A stretch of 24,140 nt of DNA. Origin: a virus. Made by a program: the position numbers and the translations under genes. Positions 7,866-24,140 of this stretch are shown here, one piece after another (position 1 is the stretch's first letter; each line of letters begins with the position of its first letter). The notes under the pieces are model-generated. The model was not told the origin of the DNA. It worked only from the letters and a program-made list of their open reading frames with translations, and did not search any database. Location of the stretch: positions 1-24,140 of the IMG/VR virus record IMGVR_UViG_3300044984_001653; one strand, written 5' to 3'.

Positions 7866-9896
7866 TTAATATAATTTAATCTCGCAGGCATCTGTAGAGC
7901 AATATGCTTCTCCTGCAGCCTCAAGATTTTCTACTCCATCATAGATAGCAGACCAGTCAATCTTACCAATTTTTCCTACATGAGAGTTATATTCTTCACG
8001 AGTAATCTCAGTATAAGGTTGTTGTGGATAAGTTTTATTGCCCATTGGAAGGAATGAAACTGCCTTTAGTTGACCTTCATACATATTAAGTGCTGGGGCA
8101 ATAAATTTAGTTTCCTCTTCTTTATCAAATGACAGAGTTACAGAAACACCATTGTCTGACCAATACTTTTGTGCAGTTGCTGCTAAGCCAATCTTTTCAA
8201 ATAGGCTAACCTCTTTTTCAGAACGTTTATGCCCTGATGCTATTGGAAAATATACTACTGAAGTATTTGCTGATACTAGATCATCTTCAATTTTATATCC
8301 CGCTGCTTTAAATAAATGTAGCATAGGATCTGTATTACCAAAACGAATAGCACGAAGGTAAAACTCACCACCAGGGCCCCAGTGAACTCCAGGAGTAGCA
8401 CCAGAAAGAAGTGATACAGAGCCTGATGGTTTTACTGTTGTTACACGAATTGATTCACGAACACATAGCCACTCAGAATACTCATGGTCATAATGACGAA
8501 TCTTTTGATATCCCTCATCCATCCATTCACGAACAGTTGGAAGACCATTCTCATCTGCAAATGATGCAATACCAGTAAGGGATGTTCCAATTCTACGGTT
8601 ACGTTGCATAATACCGTTTGTTTGTTGCCAATGTGTTGGAAGAAGAGTTACAGTCTTACCGTATAGGTAAGCAAACTTTAATGTCTTAAGAAAATCTTCT
8701 TTAGACTCATGACGATTTAAATGAACTTCCACAAGTGTGCATAATTCGTATGATTCTAGTGGTTGTTCTGCACAAGGATTAAATCCCATTACTCTAGAAT
8801 CTTTTCCATCTGCAGGATCTGCAAGACGACCAAAGTTTCTAGCAACATCAAGCCAAATAAAACCTGGCTCACCATTATCTGCAATTAAATCTACATAGTC
8901 TTCATATTTTGTTCCAACTTCAGCAGCAATAGAGTTATTACTCATCCATGCCCATCCTGGTTTATCTGGATCATATGAATTTCTTTCTGGGAATACCTCG
9001 GGATTTTTAAGATTGATAAAAGTATCATCTCCTGGAGCACCAAGTGCCAGGGTAGCAGAACGACGAACATTTCCAGAAACAACACAAGTTCCAATAAGAT
9101 TTACAATATCAACAATAGCTCTGGAATCAAGTGTTTGTCCAGCTCTAGAGCCTATTACTTCATTGATCTTGTCATGTAGTGCAATCAAAGGTGCTGGACC
9201 GCTAGCAACGCCACCAAAGCCCTTAATAGGTGCTCCTAGTGGACGGATAAGGTCATAGTTAAACTTTTGGATAGATTGGTTTGGTCGTAGGTATGAATTT
9301 AATAACATTCTAACTGAATCTACCCAGCCCTCACGGGTATCTGGAATTTCCCAAACATTTTCTGGCTCTGTAGGTCCATAAATAGGCATATTTTTATCTT
9401 GCCCAATAGTATCAAAACCTACACCTATACCTAACATTAAAGCATCCATTACCCAAGCAAAAAGGGCACCTGGATCATTACGATCAATATCACGAGTAGA
9501 TACCATTGCACAATTTTGAAGGGAAGCAGAATTACGCTTTTCCATAGTCATAGGAGTTCCAAATGCCCATAGTCCACGTCCTGGAGGTGTCCATTTTAAT
9601 TCAAACATTCTTTGAAAAGCTTCTTGGGCAGACTTCTGTGCTTTGTTATCATTCCAGGGTAGACGATTATCTTTAGCATGATTCTTTTGAACTGAATACA
9701 TACCCTCGATTACACGACGACAAACTTCATGCCAACGCTCTTTTGTTCCATCATCTTTCATGCGAGAATATGTTCTAATAAAAGTAATTTCTCCCAATGA
9801 ATTAGATCCTGCATCTGAAAAACCAAATGGTGCTGGGATATTATTATATTTATTTACAAAATCTTCTGATAGACGAAACGAAAAAACTTCTGACAT
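7866..9896 (-). CDS. nrdJ: Adenosylcobalamin-dependent (class II) ribonucleoside-triphosphate reductase
   Basis: 676 aa. It would reduce ribonucleotides to deoxyribonucleotides in the host cytoplasm, using coenzyme B12 to generate a thiyl radical, so it supplies dNTPs for phage replication without oxygen or a second subunit. The active-site layout matches the monomeric Lactobacillus leichmannii type. It has Cys129 (LQNCAMVST), the NPCAEQPL motif with Asn373, radical Cys375 and Glu377, and redox partner Cys386 eleven residues later. KPSGSVSLLSGATPGVHW is at 489-506, and a C-terminal pair Cys666/Cys671 (CSTDAC) is present for thioredoxin-type re-reduction. No ATP-cone is seen at the N-terminus. 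It is somewhat shorter than the roughly 739-aa Lactobacillus enzyme. GAAAGG lies 10 nt before ATG 9896. The gene has its own terminator-insulated promoter region and sits oddly among virion genes. Confidence 0.96.
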   Translation of the reverse strand: MSEVFSFRLSEDFVNKYNNIPAPFGFSDAGSNSLGEITFIRTYSRMKDDGTKERWHEVCRRVIEGMYSVQKNHAKDNRLPWNDNKAQKSAQEAFQRMFELKWTPPGRGLWAFGTPMTMEKRNSASLQNCAMVSTRDIDRNDPGALFAWVMDALMLGIGVGFDTIGQDKNMPIYGPTEPENVWEIPDTREGWVDSVRMLLNSYLRPNQSIQKFNYDLIRPLGAPIKGFGGVASGPAPLIALHDKINEVIGSRAGQTLDSRAIVDIVNLIGTCVVSGNVRRSATLALGAPGDDTFINLKNPEVFPERNSYDPDKPGWAWMSNNSIAAEVGTKYEDYVDLIADNGEPGFIWLDVARNFGRLADPADGKDSRVMGFNPCAEQPLESYELCTLVEVHLNRHESKEDFLKTLKFAYLYGKTVTLLPTHWQQTNGIMQRNRRIGTSLTGIASFADENGLPTVREWMDEGYQKIRHYDHEYSEWLCVRESIRVTTVKPSGSVSLLSGATPGVHWGPGGEFYLRAIRFGNTDPMLHLFKAAGYKIEDDLVSANTSVVYFPIASGHKRSEKEVSLFEKIGLAATAQKYWSDNGVSVTLSFDKEEETKFIAPALNMYEGQLKAVSFLPMGNKTYPQQPYTEITREEYNSHVGKIGKIDWSAIYDGVENLEAAGEAYCSTDACEIKLY

Positions 9897-9966: not shown

Positions 9967-10001
9967 TTTAAAAAGAAAAACACGCCTGTTTAAGACGTGT
10001 T
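9967..10001 (-). terminator. Rho-independent terminator, minus strand
   Basis: On the minus strand AACACGTCT (10001-9993) pairs with AGGCGTGTT (9987-9979) around the 5-nt loop TAAAC. This is a 9-bp stem including one G-U pair, followed by TTTCTTTTT. On the plus strand the wobble becomes a C-A mismatch and no T tract follows, so it works in one direction. It ends the tail-fibre transcription unit before nrdJ. Confidence 0.8.
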
Positions 10002-10060: not shown

Positions 10061-10834
10061 TTAGAATCCACCGAAGCTTGGACCAAACGATGGTGGGAAG
10101 AACGGGAATGAAGGCGGGAAGAACGGTGGGAAGAACGGTGGGAAGAACGGGAAGAACGGAAAGAACGGAAAGAACGGTGGGAAGAACGGTGGGAAGAACG
10201 GGAAGAATGGAGGGAAAAACGGAGGAGTTGTAACGCTACCAGATGCAGATGAAGTTACAGAGTTTCCATTAGCATTAGTAGCATAAACAGTATAAGTTTG
10301 TGAAGTATTTGCTTCTTGGGTAACAACAACAGATAGCGTTGATCCATTAACTGTTGCACCTTTACCGTCAGAGGAAGCCCATGTGTATCCAGTAATAGTG
10401 CTTCCACCAGTTGCTGGAGCAACCCAAGTAACAGTATCTGCAAGAGCTGCTGTTGATACAGTCGGTGCTGTTGGAGTTGCTGGAACAGTGGTTGCTGTAA
10501 TAGAGCTAGAGGCAGTAGATGCATCTGAAGTGCCAACTGCGTTTGTTGCTGTTGCTGTAAAAGTATAGGCAGTATTAGATTGTAGTCCTGTTACAGTTAA
10601 TGGTGATGTTGAGCCAGATGCTGTATAGCCTCCAGGAGAAGAGGTAACTGTAAACGATGTAATTGGTGCACCATTTGATCCACCTGATGAAAAAGCTACA
10701 CTTGCAGATCCATTATTAAATGCACGACCAGTTCCAGCGTTTGTTGCAACAACGCTTACTGGAGGGTTAGGCTTTCCTGCACCCTGAAACCCAAGACCTC
10801 TTACACCAGCTCCTCTACCACCAATAATAGGCAT
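10061..10834 (-). CDS. Virion protein with two fibronectin type III domains and a Pro/Phe repeat tail
   Basis: 257 aa. A Gly-rich N-terminus (MPIIGGRGAGVRGLGFQGAG) is followed by two FN3-like beta domains, about residues 22-112 (with GLQSNTAYTFTATATNAVG) and 118-203 (with TITGYTWASS and QTYTVYATNANG). FN3 domains are common in phage tail proteins, where they may bind cell-surface sugars. Residues 204-250 are almost only Pro and Phe in units PPFF and PFF: about 24 Phe, 21 Pro and 2 Ser in 47 residues. The end is GPSFGGF. This tail is neither a normal transmembrane helix, because of the prolines, nor a known trimerisation motif. It could be a sticky or membrane-active tip. ATG 10834 has AAAGGGG upstream. 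The gene is last in the fibre unit, 13 nt after the 524-aa fibre. Confidence 0.82.
   Translation of the reverse strand: MPIIGGRGAGVRGLGFQGAGKPNPPVSVVATNAGTGRAFNNGSASVAFSSGGSNGAPITSFTVTSSPGGYTASGSTSPLTVTGLQSNTAYTFTATATNAVGTSDASTASSSITATTVPATPTAPTVSTAALADTVTWVAPATGGSTITGYTWASSDGKGATVNGSTLSVVVTQEANTSQTYTVYATNANGNSVTSSASGSVTTPPFFPPFFPFFPPFFPPFFPFFPFFPFFPPFFPPFFPPSFPFFPPSFGPSFGGF
10085..10226 (-). repeat. Low-complexity repeat encoding the (P)PFF tail
   Basis: Imperfect tandem copies of GGGAAGAACGG-type units (plus strand) in 9- and 12-bp steps. Each unit encodes PFF or PPFF on the minus strand. The plus strand is almost purely purine, broken mainly by the C of each AAC. Such a tract can change length by slippage in multiples of three without breaking the frame. 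Confidence 0.8.
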
Positions 10835-10847
10835 CTGCTATTCCCCT

Positions 10848-12422
10848 TTATGCGAACTTTGTTTGTGATCCAAATGCTGTAAAGGCAGCATCTCCTGTTT
10901 TTACTATAGTATATGAATAAATATCAATACTGCTTGCATTTCCTGCTGATGGAGCAGTTCCATTTTGCCATTTTGGAGTTACAGAAGAACCATCAATTTG
11001 GAATCCTGTTTGATAATATGGAGTTAAACCATTTGTAACAAAGAACACAACTGTTATAGAGTCATTTGTAGCAAGACTATCATTAAGTGTAGCTCCTGAG
11101 CTTCCACGAACATTTAGTGTCCAGTTAGCACTTGCATTTGATGTGTAATATAATATACCGCTTGTTAAAACGTCCAAAGGAATTGTTCCACTTGCTGCAG
11201 TTGCAGATACTGTTAAACGCTCTTCTGGTCCACGAAGGATTGTGTTTATATTTAAAGCATTTGTTAGTGTTGGAGCAGTTCCAAAAACTAGTGATCCAGA
11301 TCCTGTTTCATCAGTTATAGCTGATAAAAGGTTTGCTGATGAAGGTGTTCCAAGGAATGTGGCAACTCCTGTTCCAAATGCATCTGTTCCAGCAAATTTT
11401 AATGTTTTACCAGAAGCAAGATTAATATGCTCTGAAGATGTCCATGAGTCTGTAGCATCTACCCAGTTAAAGGTTTTATCGGTTGCACCCTTTAATGTGA
11501 TACCGCCACCATCTGCTGTTGTGTCTGTAGGTGTTTCAACATCACCAAGAACAACGTTTTTGTCTTCTACTACAAGGCTGGTTGAGTTAATATTTGTTGT
11601 AGTTCCGTTTACTGTCAAGTCCCCAGAAATTGTTAAGTTAACTGCTGTAGCAGTTCCAGTAAATGCTGGCGCTGCAAGTGGAGCTTTAGCATCTAGTTGT
11701 GTTTGAATTGCCGAAGTTACTCCATCTACATAGTTTAACTCTGTAGCGGTAGCAGTTACTGCAACGTCTTCGTTAATCTTAGGGCTTGTTAAAGTTTTAT
11801 TTGTAAGGGTTTCAGTTCCAGCAAGTGAAGCTACATCGGCATCGCTAACTGCAGTATTTAGTTGAGCAAGAGTTGATGTAACTGTGTTTGAGCCAAGTGA
11901 TATTGACTTGTTTGAAAGTGTATTTGTTGATGATGCTGTTACTGTAATATCGGATGTAAGTGCTACTGTGCCTGTTGCATCTGGGAAAGTAATTGTGCGA
12001 TCTGCGCTAGGGTCTCCTGCTGAAAGAGTCAGCTCAAAAGCATCTGCAGTAGAACCTTCCATTGTAATTGTTGAAGTAAATACTCCGATGTCTGTAATAT
12101 CTGAAAGGTTTCCAGTTGTAATAACTGTTCCTGTTACGTTAGGAAGGGTAATTGTGCGATCAGCAGTAGGGTCTGTTACTTGAAGTGTAGTTTCATAAGA
12201 ATCGGCGGTAGCACCTTCAAAAGTAATGCTAGTTCCAAAAGCAGGATTTACTGTGGAGTTAATATCAGAAAAATAATCTAGATCAGCCCAGTGGTTTGTT
12301 CCATCGCCAATTTTAAATTTATTTGTGTCTGACTCCCAGCCCATTTCACCAGCATTTAATACTGGGTTAGCAGAGGTCCATTGAGAGGCAGTTCCTCTAC
12401 GCTGTTGCATTCTTGTTGCCAT
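10848..12422 (-). CDS. Tail fibre protein with Mtd-like N-terminal domain
   Basis: 524 aa. The N-terminus (MATRMQQRRGTASQWTSANP, then NAGEMGWESDTNKFKIGDGT) matches the short domain at the start of major tropism determinant-like phage receptor-binding proteins. Next come fibre modules with FEGATADSYETT and DPTADRTITLPNVTGTV, present at least twice. After them is TLTNKTLTSP, then APAFTGTATAVNLTISGDLT, then a module with GVATFLGTPSSANL and ITDETGSGSLVFGTAPTL. The last 120 residues, with ILYYTSNASANWTLNVRG and FQIDGSSVTPKWQ, resemble C-terminal domains of marine phage fibres. Probably a trimeric host-contact fibre. ATG 12422 has a good AGAAGGAG ribosome binding site and an extended -10 box 28 nt upstream. 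No variable-repeat/template-repeat pair or reverse transcriptase is seen. Confidence 0.82.
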   Translation of the reverse strand: MATRMQQRRGTASQWTSANPVLNAGEMGWESDTNKFKIGDGTNHWADLDYFSDINSTVNPAFGTSITFEGATADSYETTLQVTDPTADRTITLPNVTGTVITTGNLSDITDIGVFTSTITMEGSTADAFELTLSAGDPSADRTITFPDATGTVALTSDITVTASSTNTLSNKSISLGSNTVTSTLAQLNTAVSDADVASLAGTETLTNKTLTSPKINEDVAVTATATELNYVDGVTSAIQTQLDAKAPLAAPAFTGTATAVNLTISGDLTVNGTTTNINSTSLVVEDKNVVLGDVETPTDTTADGGGITLKGATDKTFNWVDATDSWTSSEHINLASGKTLKFAGTDAFGTGVATFLGTPSSANLLSAITDETGSGSLVFGTAPTLTNALNINTILRGPEERLTVSATAASGTIPLDVLTSGILYYTSNASANWTLNVRGSSGATLNDSLATNDSITVVFFVTNGLTPYYQTGFQIDGSSVTPKWQNGTAPSAGNASSIDIYSYTIVKTGDAAFTAFGSQTKFA

Positions 12423-12934: not shown

Positions 12935-15040
12935 TTATGCTTCGATATAAACTTTGTTAACTTTAACAACAGTATCTGATGCTGCGCCAGTAACCTGAAG
13001 AAGAACGTTTCCACCGCTGTAAACAGCATCGGTTGTTCCTAGTTGGGCATTGCTGATTACATCTGCATACTCTGTTAAGTAAACGTTATTTGATCCATCA
13101 ACTGTAACAAGCAGTTCAATTACTTCAATGTCAGTTCCCTTTTTCATTTGAACAATATACTTTGCAGATGAATAAGTTGTTGCTGACCATGTGTCAATTG
13201 TTGTTGCTGAAGTTGATGCGGTTGCTGTAGCAGTTCCAAGCAAAGCATCTGTCAGTGTGATAGATGTTGCTGTTGCTGCACCAATATTTGGAGTAACAAG
13301 AGTTGGTGTATTAGCAAATACTAGAGCACCAGTTCCTGTTTCATCAGTTACTGCTGAGATAAGGTTTGCAGAAGATGGTGTAGCTAAAAATGTTGCTACG
13401 CCAGCTCCAAGACCTGAGATACCAGTTGCTACTGGAAGACCAGTTGCGTTTGTCAAAGTTCCTGCTGATGGGGTTCCAAGATCAGGAGTTGTCAATGTTG
13501 GAGATGTAAGAGTCTTGTTAGTAAGAGTCTGTGTGCCTGTTAATGTAACTACTGTTGAATCAATATCAAGAGTGTTTCCAGTCTTGTCTAATCCTGTTCC
13601 AGCAATTATTTGTCCAAGACCAGTAAACTGGGTAAAGGTAAGTCCTGTAGTTCCAACTGTGATTGGACCATTTGTAGTTAATACATATCCAGAATCTGCG
13701 TTAACAGTTCCTTCTTCTACGAATACCGCAAAACTTGCAGTAAGTTCTGCACCTGTGTCTGCATCTGCTGCACGAGTAAAAGTTGGTGATGCATCTCCAC
13801 CATAAACATAAATACCATTTTCAGATGTAGTTGTTTGATTTTTTACTAAAAGCCTGTCTCCAGTGTCGAAAGTAATGCCATCAAATACAGCTGGACTTGC
13901 TCCACCATATCCAACGAAAAACATATTTGCAGTTGTAGCAGCTTTAACTGATGCTTTCCAGTCAATACCTTGTGCTGCTGAATCTACATAAGACTTTGTT
14001 GCTGCATCTGTTGCATCAGTTGGTGTTCCAAGACCTGTGATCTTGTTTGTTCCCATTGCAATTGCACCAGTCATAGTGCCACCAGCAAGTGCTAATTTAT
14101 TTCCAAGATCTGTTGTAAGTCCTGAAATTTTTGACTGAGCAATTGCTGCAGCAGAGTTGATGTCTGCATCTACAATTGTGTCATTAGCAATCTTTGCTGA
14201 AGTAACTGCCTGATCTACAATTTTTGCTGTTTCTACAGAGTCTGCAGCAAGTTTACCAGCAGTTACGTTAGCATCTGTAATTTTTGCTGTGGTTACTGCG
14301 CCATCTGCAAGTTTACCAGTGGTTACGTTTAAGTCTGCAAGTTTACCAGTAGTTACGTTTAAATTTTTAATACTTGCTGTTTCTACAGAATCTGAAGCCA
14401 TCTTAGCAGCGGTTACATTACCATCTCTAATGTTTGCTGTTTCAACTGCGCTAGTTGCAAGTTTTGCTGCTGTTACGTTAGCATCTCTAATGTTTGCTGT
14501 TTCAACTGCGCTAGTTGCAAGTTTTGCTGCTGTTACGTTAGCATCTCTAATGTTTGCTGTTTCAACTGCGCTAGTTGCAAGTTTTGCTGTTGTTACGTTA
14601 GCATCAAGAATCTTTGCGGTTGTAACTGAGTCTGAAGCAAGTAGTGTTGCTGTAACTGTGCCAGTATCACCAGTTGTAATTACGGTTCCTGATACGTCAG
14701 GAAGTGTTATTGTGCGATCTGCTGTTGGGTCAGTTACTGTAACTGTTGTTTCAAAATCATTTGCTGTAGCACCTTCAAATACAATGCTTGATTCAAAAGA
14801 TCCAACTGCTGCTGGGGCTGCCCACTTAACACCATTGGTTGCTGAATCATCTGCTGTAAGAACGTAATTATTTGTTCCAACTGCAAGACGAGTTACCGCA
14901 TCTGCACCAGAGGCTACTAGCAAATCACCTTTTGCATCTACTAGTGCTTCTGTTAATATATCATGTGAGTTAACGGTCGCAGTTGATCCTTCAACTACAA
15001 GTCCCGCTTTTACTCTAAAATCTTTTACTACTGTTGCCAT
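12935..15040 (-). CDS. Large tail fibre protein with decapeptide repeats
   Basis: 701 aa, with ATG 15040 behind CAAGGAGAT. It has an N-terminal attachment segment, then FEGATANDFETTVTVTDPTADRTITLPDVSGTV at about 88-120. Residues 135-294 are sixteen decapeptide steps in register, alternating forms such as DANVTAAKLA and TSAVETANIR. A shaft module with ATKSYVDSAAQGIDWK follows. Then comes a domain with TGDRLLVKNQTT and ENGIYVYGG, then TLTNKTLTSPTL and GVATFLATPSSANL modules shared with the 524-aa fibre. The final domain (SSAKYIVQMKKGTDIEVIEL to the end) resembles that of the 148-aa protein. The repeats suggest a long trimeric fibrous shaft. No chaperone or peptidase domain is recognised at the C-terminus. 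Likely role: host attachment. Confidence 0.82.
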   Translation of the reverse strand: MATVVKDFRVKAGLVVEGSTATVNSHDILTEALVDAKGDLLVASGADAVTRLAVGTNNYVLTADDSATNGVKWAAPAAVGSFESSIVFEGATANDFETTVTVTDPTADRTITLPDVSGTVITTGDTGTVTATLLASDSVTTAKILDANVTTAKLATSAVETANIRDANVTAAKLATSAVETANIRDANVTAAKLATSAVETANIRDGNVTAAKMASDSVETASIKNLNVTTGKLADLNVTTGKLADGAVTTAKITDANVTAGKLAADSVETAKIVDQAVTSAKIANDTIVDADINSAAAIAQSKISGLTTDLGNKLALAGGTMTGAIAMGTNKITGLGTPTDATDAATKSYVDSAAQGIDWKASVKAATTANMFFVGYGGASPAVFDGITFDTGDRLLVKNQTTTSENGIYVYGGDASPTFTRAADADTGAELTASFAVFVEEGTVNADSGYVLTTNGPITVGTTGLTFTQFTGLGQIIAGTGLDKTGNTLDIDSTVVTLTGTQTLTNKTLTSPTLTTPDLGTPSAGTLTNATGLPVATGISGLGAGVATFLATPSSANLISAVTDETGTGALVFANTPTLVTPNIGAATATSITLTDALLGTATATASTSATTIDTWSATTYSSAKYIVQMKKGTDIEVIELLVTVDGSNNVYLTEYADVISNAQLGTTDAVYSGGNVLLQVTGAASDTVVKVNKVYIEA
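14422..14600. repeat. Tandem 60-bp direct repeats within the large fibre gene
   Basis: Positions 14461-14520 and 14521-14580 are identical. The preceding 39 bases (14422-14460) match the same unit, and 14581-14600 start another copy with one change. The 60-bp period equals two decapeptides. Identity is higher at DNA level than needed for protein, so recent duplication or homogenisation is likely. Confidence 0.92.
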
Positions 15041-18205: not shown

Positions 18206-18910
18206 TTACATCGTTCCCTGGCTATTATTCCACGGCATATCATTATGTATCCAATGCGCTGGAACCATATATTTAAATCCTGTCTTTACAGTATGCGCTG
18301 TATGATAATATGGTGCAGAGGATGGAAAAATAATTATACTTCCTGCTTTAGGCTTAACTCCAAATGCTATTTGATTATCCGCCACCGCTATATCATAATC
18401 AATATTTGGTTGTGGTGTCAATCTTACATCTTTGTAGGGAGACATAATAAAAGAAATTTCTCCTCCTTCAAAATCATCATTAAGATACATCACTAAAGAA
18501 TATCTTAAAGTCTTATCTCCATCCAATTGATCATAATGCGATCCCATTCCAACTCCCGCTTTATATTTTTTAATATTAAAAGTAGGAAAAAGTCTTGGTT
18601 CATCACTATCTCCCATTGCTTTAGCATAGTCTTTACAGACATCATAAAAAGATTCTGTAATTGTATTGTAAATAAAATACATTTTGCTTTTTAAAGGTTC
18701 TTCTAGTCTATTAATTTGATCTAAATCAAAAATTTTAGTTACGCCATATACACAACTTTTTTCATTAGATGCTGTCCACTCTAGCCATGAAGAAGAATGA
18801 GTTTTGATTTCAATTAAATCGATCTCATCTATAGTTGACATTAGCTCTGTAAAATTCTTTACTCCATCTGGGTAATAATATACTTTTTCTTCTAAAATTT
18901 CTTTTTTCAT
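18206..18910 (-). CDS. 2OG-Fe(II) oxygenase, prolyl 4-hydroxylase-like (copy 1)
   Basis: 234 aa. The double-stranded beta-helix core has iron ligands His125/Asp127 (GSHYD) and His203 (YYHTAH). Lys213 (TGFKYMV), ten residues further on, is the likely 2-oxoglutarate anchor. The MYLNDDFEGGEISF strand motif is shared by the cassette. The enzyme would hydroxylate an unknown substrate using O2 and 2-oxoglutarate in the cytoplasm. It is a close paralogue of the next gene upstream: both start with an EILEEKVYYY segment, contain KDYAKAxG, and end with a HWIH segment. A likely -10-like TGGTAAAAT lies just before ATG 18910, but no Shine-Dalgarno is seen. Divergence between the two copies suggests different targets rather than dosage. 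Confidence 0.9.
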   Translation of the reverse strand: MKKEILEEKVYYYPDGVKNFTELMSTIDEIDLIEIKTHSSSWLEWTASNEKSCVYGVTKIFDLDQINRLEEPLKSKMYFIYNTITESFYDVCKDYAKAMGDSDEPRLFPTFNIKKYKAGVGMGSHYDQLDGDKTLRYSLVMYLNDDFEGGEISFIMSPYKDVRLTPQPNIDYDIAVADNQIAFGVKPKAGSIIIFPSSAPYYHTAHTVKTGFKYMVPAHWIHNDMPWNNSQGTM

Positions 18911-18934
18911 TTTAATTTTACCAATCTTATAATA

Positions 18935-19564
18935 TTAGTGAATCCAGTGTTGTGGAACCATATATTTAAATCCACTTTTAACCAAATGTGCGGTATGGTG
19001 ATATGGTGGTGATGGTGGAAATACAATAATACTTCCTGCCTTTGGTTTTATAGCAAATGTATAGTTTTTACCTTTTTCTGCTGGGTCAAAATCTGGATTT
19101 GGAGAAGATTCTTGTAGGATTCCTCCAGGAGATGCGATGGTAAAAGAAATTTCTCCACCCTCGTAATTATCATTTAGATACATAACAAAAGAAACCTTTA
19201 ATCTATCATCTCCTTCTTGTTGATCAAAATGAGCACCCATATATGTGCCAGCCTGATATTTTTTAATTGGATACATAGGAAAAAGTTTTGGCTCATCAGT
19301 TATGCCCTGTGCTTTTGCATAATCTTTTGCTACATCATCAAAAGCTTTTTGTAATGTAGAATAGATGTAGTTGTTTTTTTCATCATTTGTATTTGAAGCA
19401 GAAATATTTTTATCTGTTCCATATACATAGTGTTGTCCGCTGCAAGCTGCCCATTCTCCCCACGCATCCGCATTATCACTTTCAATTGCGTCAACAAGTG
19501 CCTTGGGGTCTTCTATTACATTTGTATAGTAATAAACCTTTTCTTCTAGAATTTCTTTATTCAT
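18935..19564 (-). CDS. 2OG-Fe(II) oxygenase, prolyl 4-hydroxylase-like (copy 2)
   Basis: 209 aa, with ATG 19564 behind AAAAAGGAG. Iron ligands are His112/Asp114 (GAHFDQ) and His190 (YHHTAH), with Lys200 (SGFKYMV) as the 2-oxoglutarate contact. MYLNDNYEGGEISF and IKPKAGSIIVFP are core strands. It pairs with copy 1 as a tandem duplication but is shorter at the C-terminus, ending at QHWIH. Between the two core halves it carries an insertion rich in Pro/Ser/Asp (ESSPNPDFDPAEKGKN, about 152-167), as does copy 1 in altered form. The insertion may shape the substrate pocket. Confidence 0.9.
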   Translation of the reverse strand: MNKEILEEKVYYYTNVIEDPKALVDAIESDNADAWGEWAACSGQHYVYGTDKNISASNTNDEKNNYIYSTLQKAFDDVAKDYAKAQGITDEPKLFPMYPIKKYQAGTYMGAHFDQQEGDDRLKVSFVMYLNDNYEGGEISFTIASPGGILQESSPNPDFDPAEKGKNYTFAIKPKAGSIIVFPPSPPYHHTAHLVKSGFKYMVPQHWIH

Positions 19565-19576
19565 ATTATCTCCTTT

Positions 19577-20236
19577 TTAGTATTTATTGTTTTCATAAAA
19601 ATTTTTAACCTTTATAAAACCCACCAAAACATATCTAATTGGTCCTGGCCCAACATGCCTTACTCCGTGGTTATAGTCTTTTGTTCCTGGAAATAAAAGA
19701 AGTGATCCTTGTTTTGGCTTTAATTCTATATTATGATTAGAAAAGAAAAGTTCTCCTTTTGAATACTCTTCATTCAAATAAAGAATTGCAGCATGTCTAA
19801 TAGATGGGTCTGTATCTTGATCTGTATGTGGCTTTAACTCTACCCCCTCTTGCATTCTTTGAATAGTTGCAAAACCACTAAGGTCTAATGACTGATCTGC
19901 TTTTTTTACAAGATCTCCTAATCTTTTATAAATTTTTAATTGAATTTCAGTATTTAGTATATTAAAATTTTTATCTTCCCAGTTTTGAGTAATTTCAAAT
20001 TTACCTTCTGCTACTAAATTTTCAACATCATCTCTTCCAAATTTTTCAAGGCAAAAGTTTTTTAAATTTCCTAAATATTCTATACGCCAATCTTCTTCAC
20101 CGATACTGTCTATAAGACTAAAAATATCTTCTATTTCTTTTTCAGAAATAAAATTTTTTACTAATATAACATTGTCATCTATTTTTTTTATTTCAAAGTT
20201 ATTTTCAATTAGTTCTTTTTCTAAAAAAGCACTCAT
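19577..20236 (-). CDS. 2OG-Fe(II) oxygenase (copy 3)
   Basis: 219 aa. Ligands are His137/Asp139 (LKPHTDQDTD) and His190 (DYNHGVRHV). Arg201 (GPIRYVL) is the 2-oxoglutarate anchor, eleven residues after the distal His. ILYLNEEYSKGELFF replaces the usual EGGE with SKGE. The N-terminal half (DDNVILVKNFISEKEIEDIF) is the helical lead-in typical of P4H-like enzymes. It starts one base after the upstream gene's stop, with GAAGAG upstream, and so is part of the polycistron. It is distinct from copies 1 and 2 outside the motifs. Confidence 0.88.
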   Translation of the reverse strand: MSAFLEKELIENNFEIKKIDDNVILVKNFISEKEIEDIFSLIDSIGEEDWRIEYLGNLKNFCLEKFGRDDVENLVAEGKFEITQNWEDKNFNILNTEIQLKIYKRLGDLVKKADQSLDLSGFATIQRMQEGVELKPHTDQDTDPSIRHAAILYLNEEYSKGELFFSNHNIELKPKQGSLLLFPGTKDYNHGVRHVGPGPIRYVLVGFIKVKNFYENNKY

Positions 20237-20237
20237 A

Positions 20238-20987
20238 TTATTTTAACTCTTCTATGCTATATTTATTTCCACTTTCGTCTAACTTATATCCTTCTTTAAG
20301 AAGATTTTGCCATTCTTCTTTTTCAATTTTTTGAGCAGCTCTAACTTTGTCCATCTCTTCTTTCCATGCAGCCCTTAGTTCTTCTGGATAATCTGATTCT
20401 TCTCTATCATCCCAAAAAGACCCCAGTGTATACCTAATTCCTTTAGTTATTATACTTACTTCATGCATGTTGTTGTGGCTACCATTAAATGCTGCAAGCA
20501 TTCCAACTTTTGGAGATAGCTCAACATTTCTATCTGGGAACTTTAATAGACCACCTTCAAAATTGTCATTAAGATATAGAAATGCTGCATATCTACTTCT
20601 TTCAAATGCTCCGAAATTTCCATGCTCATCTGTATTATCCGAATGAATACGAGCAAATGCTCCTGGCTCCCATTTTTGTGTGTGATATCCTATTTGAGAA
20701 ATTTTTTCTTCGGGGGTATTATGAACAGAAGCTACAGCTTTAATTATGCCATTTTTAATATCTGAAAATACAGTTGGTGTTAATCCAACCTCTTCTAATT
20801 CTGGGTCATTGTCTTGTGGTAATACTGAAGAATATGATTCATAAAAAGATATAGGGGTCCATGAAATCTTTTGATTTTCTGCTTGTTTTTCTAATGCTAG
20901 AATAATTTTAGCAGACTCTTCGGCAGTTAAAAAATTTTCATAAACAACTAGGTCTTCATTGATTCTTTTTTTATCATTTAGATTCAT
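20238..20987 (-). CDS. 2OG-Fe(II) oxygenase with charged C-terminal extension (copy 4)
   Basis: 249 aa. Ligands are His115/Asp117 (ARIHSDNTD) and His175 (NNMHEVSII), with Arg185 (GIRYTLGSF) ten residues on. FLYLNDNFEGGLLKFPDRN is the core strand pair, as in PiuC/P4H-like proteins. After the core (from about residue 192) comes a 55-60-residue highly charged helical extension (WKEEMDKVRAAQKIEKEEWQ) that the other copies lack. It could bind a partner protein. ATG 20987 overlaps the previous stop as ATGA, so translation is coupled. Confidence 0.9.
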   Translation of the reverse strand: MNLNDKKRINEDLVVYENFLTAEESAKIILALEKQAENQKISWTPISFYESYSSVLPQDNDPELEEVGLTPTVFSDIKNGIIKAVASVHNTPEEKISQIGYHTQKWEPGAFARIHSDNTDEHGNFGAFERSRYAAFLYLNDNFEGGLLKFPDRNVELSPKVGMLAAFNGSHNNMHEVSIITKGIRYTLGSFWDDREESDYPEELRAAWKEEMDKVRAAQKIEKEEWQNLLKEGYKLDESGNKYSIEELK

Positions 20988-21655
20988 GGCTTTTTATCTC
21001 CAGTATGTTCTGTAATTTCCCAAAAAAATGGACACGTAAATCTTATGCCACTTTTTATTTCAGTTACTCCATGAATATATTGCATATCTCCTGGGAAAAA
21101 ATAAGCAGCTCCAACTTTGGGTTTAAACTGAACCCCTTGGTTTGGAAAATATAATTCGCCACCCTCGTAGTCTTCGTTTAAATAAAATAAACTTGAAAGG
21201 TCGTAGTTTGGAAAATCATTTGGCAATCCAGCATCTGGCCCCTCATGTAGCTCTTTATCTGCGTGGGGATGTTGATATTGTCCTGGAAGCCATTTTACTA
21301 TTGTTGCTCCAGTTGGAATAACTTTAACTTTATAAAAATCTTCAATAATTGGCTCTAGTCTTTTAAATAACCCTGTGATAACTGGTGCTATTTTAGGATC
21401 ATTTTTATTTAAACTTGGAGTTGTGGCAACTCTATCTTTCCAGTAATCTGAATCATATATCACTGTGCCATTTTCATTAACATGGCTTTGTGTTACATCC
21501 CAAATTGTTATAGATTTTGCAGCATTTTCTAAAAACTCTATTTCATCTTGAGTCATAAAATTTTCTAACTCAACAATCATTTCTTTCCCACTACCAAACC
21601 AGCCAGAAGGTGTTTTAGAGGGTTTTCTTGTTACAACATTATCTAAGTCAGCCAT
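20984..21655 (-). CDS. 2OG-Fe(II) oxygenase (copy 5)
   Basis: 223 aa. Ligands are His131/Asp133 (QHPHADKE) and His195 (YIHGVTEI), with Arg205 (GIRFTCPFF). LFYLNEDYEGGELYFPNQG and FKPKVGAAYFFPG are core strands. KWLPGQYQHPHAD has the usual W-x-G-x-x-x-x-H spacing. A loop of about 15 residues (ELHEGPDAGLPNDFP) follows the HxD. It has its own candidate leaderless promoter inside the operon, in the end of the preceding gene, so copies 5 to 1 and the SDR may be expressed separately from the genes to the right. Confidence 0.9.
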   Translation of the reverse strand: MADLDNVVTRKPSKTPSGWFGSGKEMIVELENFMTQDEIEFLENAAKSITIWDVTQSHVNENGTVIYDSDYWKDRVATTPSLNKNDPKIAPVITGLFKRLEPIIEDFYKVKVIPTGATIVKWLPGQYQHPHADKELHEGPDAGLPNDFPNYDLSSLFYLNEDYEGGELYFPNQGVQFKPKVGAAYFFPGDMQYIHGVTEIKSGIRFTCPFFWEITEHTGDKKP

Positions 21656-21657
21656 AA

Positions 21658-22386
21658 TTAAATTATACCACCGCTTCTATTTTTAGTATTATCTTGAACA
21701 AAAAGCTTTAAAACTTTTGCTTCATGTTTTCCAGTGGTTTCACCTTTTTCATTTACAGCATCTCTATACCAATCTGTCCATTGTCCTTGAGAATTTATTT
21801 TTTGTGCTCCTTCTCCGTAAGATTTAATATTTTTTTGTCTTATATCCCCTGGATCGGAAAAATCAACAATATTAATCGATGTATTATTCATTTCAGTAAG
21901 TGATATTGGAATAATTTGTGCAATAGGAGTATTAGCTTTTATTAAAATATTTTTATTTGGAGATTTAGCTTTTATGGCTATTGGAAAATCTGTATCAAGC
22001 CAAGAAGTGCTAATCAAAGATGACACAACTTCAAAATCATCATTAAAATAATTAATAGGATTTATTGTTAACATGCTAATATTTTCATCAGTTCTAAACA
22101 CTAGGCCAGTTACTATGCTTACTGTTGCCTGACCTCTTCCAGTATAAAGAAAATCCTTTTTACTAAGGATATTAATATTTTCAGAACTTGTATCATTTAT
22201 TCCATTCCAGACAAATTCAATGTCTTGTGTGCAAGACAAACTCCAGCCAACCATATTGGCTTGAGTAACTGGAAAACACCTATATGCATGTTTTTCTGGA
22301 GTAAGGTCCATCCAATCTCTTTTTATAGACATGGGAGATATATTGATTACAGATTCTGTTTTTTTTTCAACTGATATGTTTAGCAT
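21658..22386 (-). CDS. DUF6065-like conserved phage protein, function unknown
   Basis: 242 aa. NISPMSIKRDWMDLTPEKHA and CFPVTQANMVGWSLSCTQDI are features I associate with the DUF6065 family of phage and bacterial proteins; no function is known to me. A middle block TGLVFRTDENISMLTINPIN and ILIKANTPIAQIIPISL reads as beta strands, and the C-terminus is polar with KHEAKVLKLF. There are no metal-binding or catalytic motifs as in the oxygenases. It starts within the stop of the upstream oxygenase (TAATG). It shares an overall strand order with the 263-aa protein two genes upstream (tight turn, then G-x-tP-x-xQI-x-P), so the two may be distant relatives. A partner, carrier or substrate role for the oxygenases is inference. 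Confidence 0.72.
   Translation of the reverse strand: MLNISVEKKTESVINISPMSIKRDWMDLTPEKHAYRCFPVTQANMVGWSLSCTQDIEFVWNGINDTSSENINILSKKDFLYTGRGQATVSIVTGLVFRTDENISMLTINPINYFNDDFEVVSSLISTSWLDTDFPIAIKAKSPNKNILIKANTPIAQIIPISLTEMNNTSINIVDFSDPGDIRQKNIKSYGEGAQKINSQGQWTDWYRDAVNEKGETTGKHEAKVLKLFVQDNTKNRSGGII
21662..21670 (-). promoter_or_regulatory. Extended -10 promoter inside the oxygenase cassette
   Basis: TGGTATAAT reads on the minus strand, with TATAAT at 21667-21662, 6 nt before ATG 21655 and within the last codons of the upstream gene. No Shine-Dalgarno precedes the ATG, so leaderless initiation fits. Confidence 0.5.
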
Positions 22387-23063
22387 TAGTCTTCGTCTGC
22401 ACGATACATTTCTGGAGTATGAAACTTTTTGTTGTAATCTAACATAGTGACAATAGAGTATTTTGTTCCAGAATGAACTGGCATTGCCCTGTGTGGATAC
22501 ATGAAATTAGAAGGAAATATAAACAAGTCTCCTGCTTCTGGTTTAATATTTAAATTTTGTAGTCTAAAGTATAACTCTCCACCTTCATAATCATCGTTTA
22601 CATAGGCTACCAATGAAACTGTGCAGTTATATGAAAAACCGTGGTCGTGATGTTCTTGGAAGTGTTGTCCTGGACCATATTTAATAAAGTTAAAGGCTTC
22701 CCAATACTTTAAATCCATAATGTTGTGATGTGCTCTATAGTCTTCAACTGCTTGAAACTGTGCATCATAAACATCTTGCCACAGTGCTTGAAGAGCTGCA
22801 GAATCGGGATCTAAATCTTGTTGTATATCAGTTTTTTTAAACTTAAAATCTGAACAGTCCCTGTATAATGGCATAAGCTCTTTATAACCTACATATGCTG
22901 GATTCCAGTGGTATTTCTTTCCATCTTTTGATAATTCTCCAATTGGTGCAATTTCTCCTAAAACATTTTCTAGTCTATTAATAACATCAAATTCTTTTTT
23001 TATAACATTTTTATATAAAAAAATTCCATTACCTAGATCTTGCTTTTCTGTCCAAGTTTGCAT
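22386..23063 (-). CDS. 2OG-Fe(II) oxygenase (copy 6)
   Basis: 225 aa, with ATG 23063 behind AAGGGGAA. Ligands are His138/Asp140 (QEHHDHG) and His191 (MYPHRAMPV), with Lys201 (SGTKYSIV). VAYVNDDYEGGELYF and IKPEAGDLFIFPSN are the core strands. It is closest to the partial enzyme at the right edge: both have a DHG-x-x-YNCTVS stretch after the HxD and SGTKY at the 2-oxoglutarate site. The N-terminal 110 residues are mostly helical. It is separated from that relative by the 263-aa conserved protein, so an oxygenase plus unknown-protein pair may have been duplicated. Confidence 0.91.
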   Translation of the reverse strand: MQTWTEKQDLGNGIFLYKNVIKKEFDVINRLENVLGEIAPIGELSKDGKKYHWNPAYVGYKELMPLYRDCSDFKFKKTDIQQDLDPDSAALQALWQDVYDAQFQAVEDYRAHHNIMDLKYWEAFNFIKYGPGQHFQEHHDHGFSYNCTVSLVAYVNDDYEGGELYFRLQNLNIKPEAGDLFIFPSNFMYPHRAMPVHSGTKYSIVTMLDYNKKFHTPEMYRADED

Positions 23064-23073
23064 TTTATTCCCC

Positions 23074-23865
23074 TTATTTATAGTCTCTTTTAGACCAAAC
23101 TTTATTTTTATAAATACCGCCGTCTGGTTGACGATAAAACTTCATGTTCTCTACCATTTTATCATAAATTTCTTTTTCTTGTTGAATGTGTATTTCTTGT
23201 TGCCAACCTTCTCTTTTAAAAGGCAAGATTTGCATGTATGGTGTTCCACCAGGAATAGTTCCTTCCCATCCTTCTGGAATAAAAAATGGAAACGTTCCTA
23301 ATAAATTAACCTTATCCACATCTACAACACCCGTTGTATTTAAAAATGGAAGATCAAATCTATTCATTGGAGACATAAAAATAGCACTATATCCTTCTGG
23401 TAACTCTATAGCCCAATCTGGATACCAAGCAAAATGATCTTTATAAAATCCATAAGGATGTTCAAATTGTGGCATTGGAGGTCTTTTTCCACAAAAATCT
23501 TGATACCTTGGATCTAATATTTTAACATCAATAGTTCCACCATCATTTTTAAAAAAAGTAATATCACAAGGTGTTTTCAATATATAGCCACTTGTAAATC
23601 CATCTAGTATAGCTGGACATGCTTTCCAAGTTGGTATCTTTCCATAATCATTTTCTGTTCCCTCTTTTGGAAATGGACATATTGTTGATGGAGCATCATA
23701 GTATTCATCTGTAATTGGGTTTTTAGCAAACCTATCAGCTTCTTTATACCATTTTGGAATAGCATCTTGAGTTGGACTTGGAGCCGACATACTTTCTTTA
23801 TTTAGCCATGGCCTATAAGATATAAATTTGATTAAATTTAAAGATATATCAAATTTTTTAACCAT
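23074..23865 (-). CDS. Conserved phage protein of unknown function
   Basis: 263 aa, with ATG 23865 overlapping the previous stop by 8 nt (ATGGTTAA). It is rich in aromatic and Pro residues: PTQDAIPKWYKEADRF, IPTWKACPAILDGFTSGYIL, HFAWYPDWAIELPEGYSAIF, FLNTTGVVDVDKVNLLGTFP and GTIPGGTPYMQILPFKREGW. Similar proteins occur in marine phages, but I know no function. The order P-x-W-K-x-CPA, TPCDI, EGYSAIFMSPMNRF, GGTPYMQILPF suggests a double-psi or jelly-roll beta fold. It is flanked on both sides by oxygenases of the same subgroup, which implies a shared process. It is soluble, with no signal peptide. Confidence 0.78.
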   Translation of the reverse strand: MVKKFDISLNLIKFISYRPWLNKESMSAPSPTQDAIPKWYKEADRFAKNPITDEYYDAPSTICPFPKEGTENDYGKIPTWKACPAILDGFTSGYILKTPCDITFFKNDGGTIDVKILDPRYQDFCGKRPPMPQFEHPYGFYKDHFAWYPDWAIELPEGYSAIFMSPMNRFDLPFLNTTGVVDVDKVNLLGTFPFFIPEGWEGTIPGGTPYMQILPFKREGWQQEIHIQQEKEIYDKMVENMKFYRQPDGGIYKNKVWSKRDYK

Positions 23866-24140
23866 GTTGTTTGTGACCTAATTCATTAATATCTGTCATA
23901 ACTACAACACAATACTTTGTTCCAGATTTTATTGGAAGGGATGCATGTTCATAGATATAGTTTGATGGACAAAGAACTATGTCTCCAACCTTTGGTTTAT
24001 ATACAAGGTTGTCTAACCTTGGAAATTTTAACTCTCCACCTTCATAGTCATCATTAATATATACTACAGCTGATACGGTGCAATTATATGCTGGTCCATG
24101 GTCTGCATGAATGTTGAAGTGAGATCCCTTTCCTTCATAC
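23858..24140 (-). CDS. 2OG-Fe(II) oxygenase (copy 7), C-terminal part, N-terminus outside the window
   Basis: About 93 residues remain, ending NELGHKQHG before TAA 23860-23858. The complete C-terminal core is here: His/Asp in FNIHADHGP, YINDDYEGGELKFP, YKPKVGDIVLCPSN, distal His in YEHASLPI, and Lys in SGTKYCVVV ten residues later. It is a close relative of copy 6 by the AYNCTVS and SGTKY segments. The start lies beyond the right edge, so length and promoter are unknown. It overlaps the start of the 263-aa gene by 8 nt, which couples their translation. Confidence 0.9.
   Translation of the reverse strand, partial: YEGKGSHFNIHADHGPAYNCTVSAVVYINDDYEGGELKFPRLDNLVYKPKVGDIVLCPSNYIYEHASLPIKSGTKYCVVVMTDINELGHKQHG

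Follow-up and report, generated by a model that had tools for sequence, protein, structure and literature searches.

The stretch of DNA analysed here, hereafter the window, comprises 24,140 nucleotides (positions 1 to 24,140 of IMG/VR virus record IMGVR_UViG_3300044984_001653). On its minus strand, a tail-fibre gene is followed after a gap of 13 nt by a gene for a 257-residue protein that ends in a tract made almost entirely of proline and phenylalanine (Table 1). Including its stop codon, the open reading frame occupies window positions 10061-10834. Its product opens with a short N-terminal peptide and continues into two beta-sandwiches predicted by AlphaFold2 with pLDDT mostly above 90, the first of which matches Pfam fn3 (PF00041, E=2.4e-10) and places the protein in that family. 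Residues 204-250 then form the tract, PPFFPPFFPFFPPFFPPFFPFFPFFPFFPPFFPPFFPPSFPFFPPSF, and the last seven residues, GPSFGGF, precede the stop codon. The original prediction had described a 47-residue Pro/Phe tail behind two FN3 domains, and our count of 24 Phe, 21 Pro and 2 Ser agrees with it. The interval it gave, 10085-10226, has the correct start but runs one base too far, the tract ending at 10225. On the other side of the gene, a B12-dependent (class II) ribonucleotide reductase gene (7866-9896) lies between it and the gene for a 1248-aa protein.

Table 1. Features of the Pro/Phe gene, its upstream fibre gene and one relative (window coordinates unless a locus is named)
Feature	Position	Strand	Basis or remark
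Pro/Phe-tailed FN3 protein CDS, 257 aa	10064..10834	-	stop codon 10061-10063
N-terminal peptide MPIIGGRGAGVRGLGFQGAGKP, putative docking peptide to fibre end	10769..10834	-	function putative
First FN3 domain, about aa 25-115	10490..10762	-	Pfam fn3 2.4e-10 and AlphaFold2 strands
Second FN3-like domain, about aa 118-203	10226..10483	-	AlphaFold2; second fn3 stretch in relatives
Pro/Phe tract, PPFF and PFF units, 47 aa	10085..10225	-	
C-terminal end GPSFGGF	10064..10084	-	site of other modules in relatives
Terminator-like stem-loop and T-run behind Pro/Phe gene	9979..10001	-	pattern scan only
Tail-fibre gene directly upstream, Mtd_N N-terminus, 524 aa	10848..12422	-	Pfam Mtd_N 1.7e-12; PHROG tail-fibre matches
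C-terminal domain of upstream fibre, aa 401-523, presumed docking site	10854..11222	-	
Split-S74 tip protein	L007 4133-5209		

Metagenomic repeats are error-prone, and an assembly error had been raised as a possible source of the tract. Across the six frames of the window, the maximum count of Phe and Pro per 47 residues is 45, compared with 18 or fewer in 40 dinucleotide-preserving shuffles. Contig L001, assembled separately, has the gene with 0/774 mismatches to the window (3 mismatches in 7178 bases overall), and such tracts are in frame in dozens of other contigs. Chance and artefact are thus ruled out for the tract as such, and we give an assembly or frame artefact virtually no chance of explaining it.

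The Pro/Phe tail is a family trait, found in many uncultured phages that are mostly aquatic. In IMG/VR, a homolog scan identified at least 401 related stretches, and the pattern PPFFPPFFP occurs in at least 120 stretches, the inspected cases lying mostly in frame within long tracts; 43 sequences enter our family alignment. The search for (P)PFF tails in other phage proteins that had been suggested as a check thus yields dozens of relatives with such tails. Cellular genomes almost never contain the tract. Across 257 Gb of sequence from bacteria and archaea, we found 55 matches to the PPFFPPFFP pattern, and only four loci (L213, L224, L244 and L245) have long in-frame tracts of the phage type, the rest being mostly short or chance frames. 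These four look like phage proteins, and a cellular origin was rejected. Sequenced isolates in INPHARED (50,697 phage records) yielded no relative by tblastn with four tract proteins, a search in which BLAST masks low complexity. Tails of this kind seem not to have been described before: the string PPFFPPFF has no match in a search of literature text, the PDB holds no sequence match for the tail, and AlphaFold2 gives it a pLDDT of about 56-64 with no regular structure. The earlier statement that the tail has no described fold is consistent with all three results. The repeat pattern is PPX-like, and because AlphaFold2 confidence is low here, the conformation discussed below is one that we infer. 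The portal of the window phage is 43% identical to that of Streptomyces phages, which suggests an actinobacterial host; the phage is far from isolates. Several phages encode two or three tract genes each, among them G031, a close relative of the window with a one-FN3 version and a two-FN3 version. In the record of L002, syntenic with the window, a second such gene, with a single FN3 domain and a Pro/Phe tail, lies immediately beyond the window's end (L263 6944-7405).

We assessed the repeat grammar in 157 distinct tracts from the family (median length 64 aa), which contain 1544 units of the PPxF type and 711 in which two residues follow a lone Pro (PxF). The residue at x is Phe in 1248 units, Tyr in 187, His in 72, Ser in 25 and Trp in 7, with a handful of others, while the last residue is Phe in 1544/1544. 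Our tract filter required F- and P-rich windows and handled both aromatic positions alike, so this asymmetry is not a product of the filter. Leu, Ile and Val do not occur in PPxF units, which, together with the invariant last Phe, fits ring packing better than bulk hydrophobicity. This bears on the membrane-inserting tip that the original prediction had offered beside a rod or an adhesive, the one element of that reading that we disfavour. A tail that penetrates a host lipid or mycolate layer as the phage enters would accord with a composition of about half Phe and with a C-terminal location in most cases (101/146 closed tracts end no more than 40 aa from the C-terminus), but the units lack aliphatic residues, His, Tyr and Ser are tolerated at one position and not at the next, and phages with Pro/Phe tails do not look like one host group. 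We consider such a membrane-active tip quite unlikely.

Codon use in the tract deviates from that of the genome. Phe is encoded by TTC in 20/24 cases in the window tract versus 35/305 elsewhere, and Pro by CCG in 11/21 versus 4/280. In the tract CCG stands before Phe, and the choices of Phe and Pro codons recur across phages. These deviations, and the switching of tips at the array described below, could be read to mean that the repeat is kept mainly as DNA, as a recombination joint for swapping 3' modules, the protein make-up being secondary. Against this, the last Phe is invariant though its codon varies (TTC about 88%, TTT about 12%), which indicates selection on the protein; the positional constraint in PPxF units acts at the protein level. 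We therefore hold a DNA-level role to be very improbable.

The position of the gene behind a fibre gene is shared across the family. Upstream sequence sufficed for this analysis in 101 tract genes. In 98 of them, an ORF at least 120 aa long lies upstream on the same strand, no more than 150 nt away, and this ORF is tail-fibre-like in 86/98, mostly at 0-35 nt, where tail-fibre-like means resemblance to a small set of reference fibres drawn from the same set of phages. At two loci, L072 and L074, the same strand lacks an ORF of at least 120 aa directly upstream. From gene position, we infer that the window protein is a virion protein. The N-terminal peptide types of tract proteins track the C-terminal types of the fibres: the D/EILG type occurs only with one fibre end (10/10) and MPIIGGRG only with another (6/9), in classes drawn by eye and post hoc, a pattern that shared ancestry could also give. 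Where the fibre end is the same but the tip differs, heads still retain the MPIIGGRGAGVRGLGFQGAGKP-type peptide. A fibre end in phage ctXG6705 shares 68% identity with the C-terminal domain of the window fibre. The gene after it bears the annotation 'phage tail fiber adhesin gp38', and its product is Gly-rich with the N-terminus MPLLQRTGSMGAKGFGL, much like the window's MPIIGGRGAGVRGLGF. Gordonia phages have related fibre ends of another type, again with a small gene behind them; in some of these phages its annotation is minor tail protein.

Behind these conserved N-termini, the tips are exchangeable. L023, L056 and L061 (MPIIGGR heads) follow a fibre end like the window's; their putative docking peptide and first FN3 domain are 75-76% identical to the window, and a Gly-rich tip replaces the Pro/Phe tail. 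In the related L027 and L057, too, the tail's place is taken by a Gly-rich region. Pfam Gly_rich_2 (PF21722) matches L023 (2.3e-23), L061 (3.2e-12) and L057 (4.8e-11), while L056 is Gly-rich by composition only. On the same kind of FN3 head, the C-termini of L033, L038, L047, L064 and L066 carry another type of tail, an aromatic (PFGxFGFx)n repeat. What follows a Pro/Phe tract may be S74, a Hint-like domain, a Cys-rich end or simply a plain end; some close relatives that share the window's kind of head have tracts that continue into a Hint domain or a split S74. In one pair, L015 and L021, heads that are 99.8% identical share most of the tract and then diverge into different ends. C-termini thus swap at the repeat array. 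The array also varies in length between copies with identical heads (140 vs 103, 125 vs 145 and 144 vs 129 residues in assembled repeats, so that part of the variation may stem from assembly), which answers in the affirmative the question, posed with the original prediction, of whether repeat number differs among relatives.

Some of the modules behind the tract are predicted from their sequences to cut themselves off. The Peptidase_S74 domain of chaperone fibres (PF13884) is fused in L134, where the tract leads straight into it at ...PPAFK|SDVRDK (3.7e-11). It is split over two ORFs in L007, L008, L010, L015, L016, L022 and L039: SSxRFK ends the tip protein and the next ORF, about 20 nt further on in most cases, encodes the remainder. 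In L007, L016, L022 and L039, this remainder aligns with profile positions 17 or 18 through 52 at 26-29.5 bits (cut-off 22); L162 and L171 look similar to the split cases. In L018, L025, L129, L147, L179 and L197, the C-terminal 150-170 aa form Hint/intein-like domains whose first residue is a Cys, usually 0-6 aa past the tract, and whose last residues are often HNK. They match the bacterial intein-like (BIL) domain 2lwy (4e-10) and inteins in the PDB. A fold search with a model of the Hint type gave only FN3 matches among the best 50, so the Hint assignment rests on profiles. Because these modules are predicted to cut themselves off, the mature protein of such relatives may have the tract as its C-terminus. 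Neither an S74 domain, fused or split (SxxRxK), nor a Hint domain with its catalytic Cys is present in the window protein, whose stop codon yields by plain translation an end similar to the one predicted for these relatives. The pairing with the tract did not extend to six phage records with similar S74 domains, in which no Pro/Phe tract precedes S74, and in Erwinia phage Y3 and a Yersinia phage a Hint virion protein occurs behind collagen-like repeats.

We think it probable that the window protein is a tail-fibre-tip adhesin, its Pro/Phe tail forming an aromatic rod or tip module of polyproline-II-like character. The N-terminal peptide would dock on the end of the fibre encoded just upstream, one or more FN3 domains would serve as a stalk, and the tract would form a stiff rod pointing outward, singly or bundled, in which the invariant Phe residues are packed and the variable aromatics (F/Y/H/W) lie exposed. 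The tract may contact the host itself or bear a short variable tip; in relatives it leads into exchangeable modules, some of them predicted to be self-cutting (S74 autochaperone, Hint). The rod or adhesive of the original prediction thereby gains support from the position behind tail-fibre genes, the exchange with Gly-rich and other tips, and tip swapping. The strongest alternative is that the tail serves as a module for assembly or docking: it would bundle copies, join different proteins of one phage or bind the fibre, leaving FN3 or PASTA-like heads exposed. Artefact, a DNA-level role and membrane insertion rank below it. In line with this alternative, one tail type occurs on many heads, with one, two or more FN3 domains, PASTA-like (a weak match, 0.0016) or Cys-rich; several phages, G031 included, have two or three tract genes; and S74 domains usually act on trimers. 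For short proteins ending in ...FK, a PASTA identity was rejected, the score lying under Pfam's cut-off. However, it is the N-terminus that is conserved and matched to the fibre while the C-terminus varies, and the tail is swapped for Gly-rich domains on the same kind of head, so we judge this module unlikely. Tracts are also found between FN3 domains and on unrelated heads, so the tract need not always be a tip.

In T-even phages, the gp38 gene sits behind the fibre gene. The window gene has the same placement, and its protein would, like gp38, sit at the fibre tip, with low-complexity repeats tied to a helix type and a contact region that is exchangeable or hypervariable; the gp38-annotated gene itself lies behind a relative of the window's fibre. 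The gp38 of Salmonella phage S16 and of PP01 is a fibre-tip adhesin with a polyglycine-II sandwich (PMC12892980). The window protein differs in having Pro/Phe rather than Gly repeats and an FN3 stalk, and its tip would be the C-terminal end of a linear tract, whereas that of gp38 consists of loops from a lattice. It has no sequence similarity to gp38 (50,697 phage records), its PHROG match being an FN3 minor tail protein, and it has no glycine-rich motifs or polyglycine-II sandwich, so it is not a gp38 member; the best reading is that the Pro/Phe tail is an analogue, not a homologue, of the gp38 polyglycine tip. Closer to the window are the Gly_rich_2 proteins of L023, L061 and L057, with the same kind of docking peptide, FN3 head and upstream fibre end, in which a Gly-rich tip replaces the Pro/Phe tail. 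Polyproline-II bundle domains are known in phage tails, such as Bxb1 gp33 and a cyanophage spike (PMC13243192). Extended left-handed helices in a phage tail tip would be common to these and the window protein, but the bundles compared in that work are Gly-rich, and we found no Pro/Phe example.

The family points to a widespread, undescribed type of host-contact module in aquatic phages and to a rule for recognizing adhesins of uncultured phages: a gene behind a fibre gene, a common N-terminal peptide and an exchangeable tip. Since PPxF is a simple repeat, its structure could teach how a near-pure Pro/Phe chain folds in water. In Hedgehog, the Hint domain brings about a covalent bond to cholesterol. 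As a bolder reading, to which we assign little probability, the tract would be an undescribed aromatic-proline fold that acts as a general socket at fibre tips and is exposed by self-processing (fused or split S74, Hint), and a Hint thioester at the tract end could bond the adhesin covalently to a nucleophile of the host surface.

Rfam found nothing in the window. Elsewhere in it, a second fibre gene contains 60-bp tandem repeats at 14391-14653 (VETANIRDANVTAAKLATSA units), and several adjacent ORFs at 18206-24139 resemble 2-oxoglutarate/Fe(II) oxygenases, a family judged by eye.
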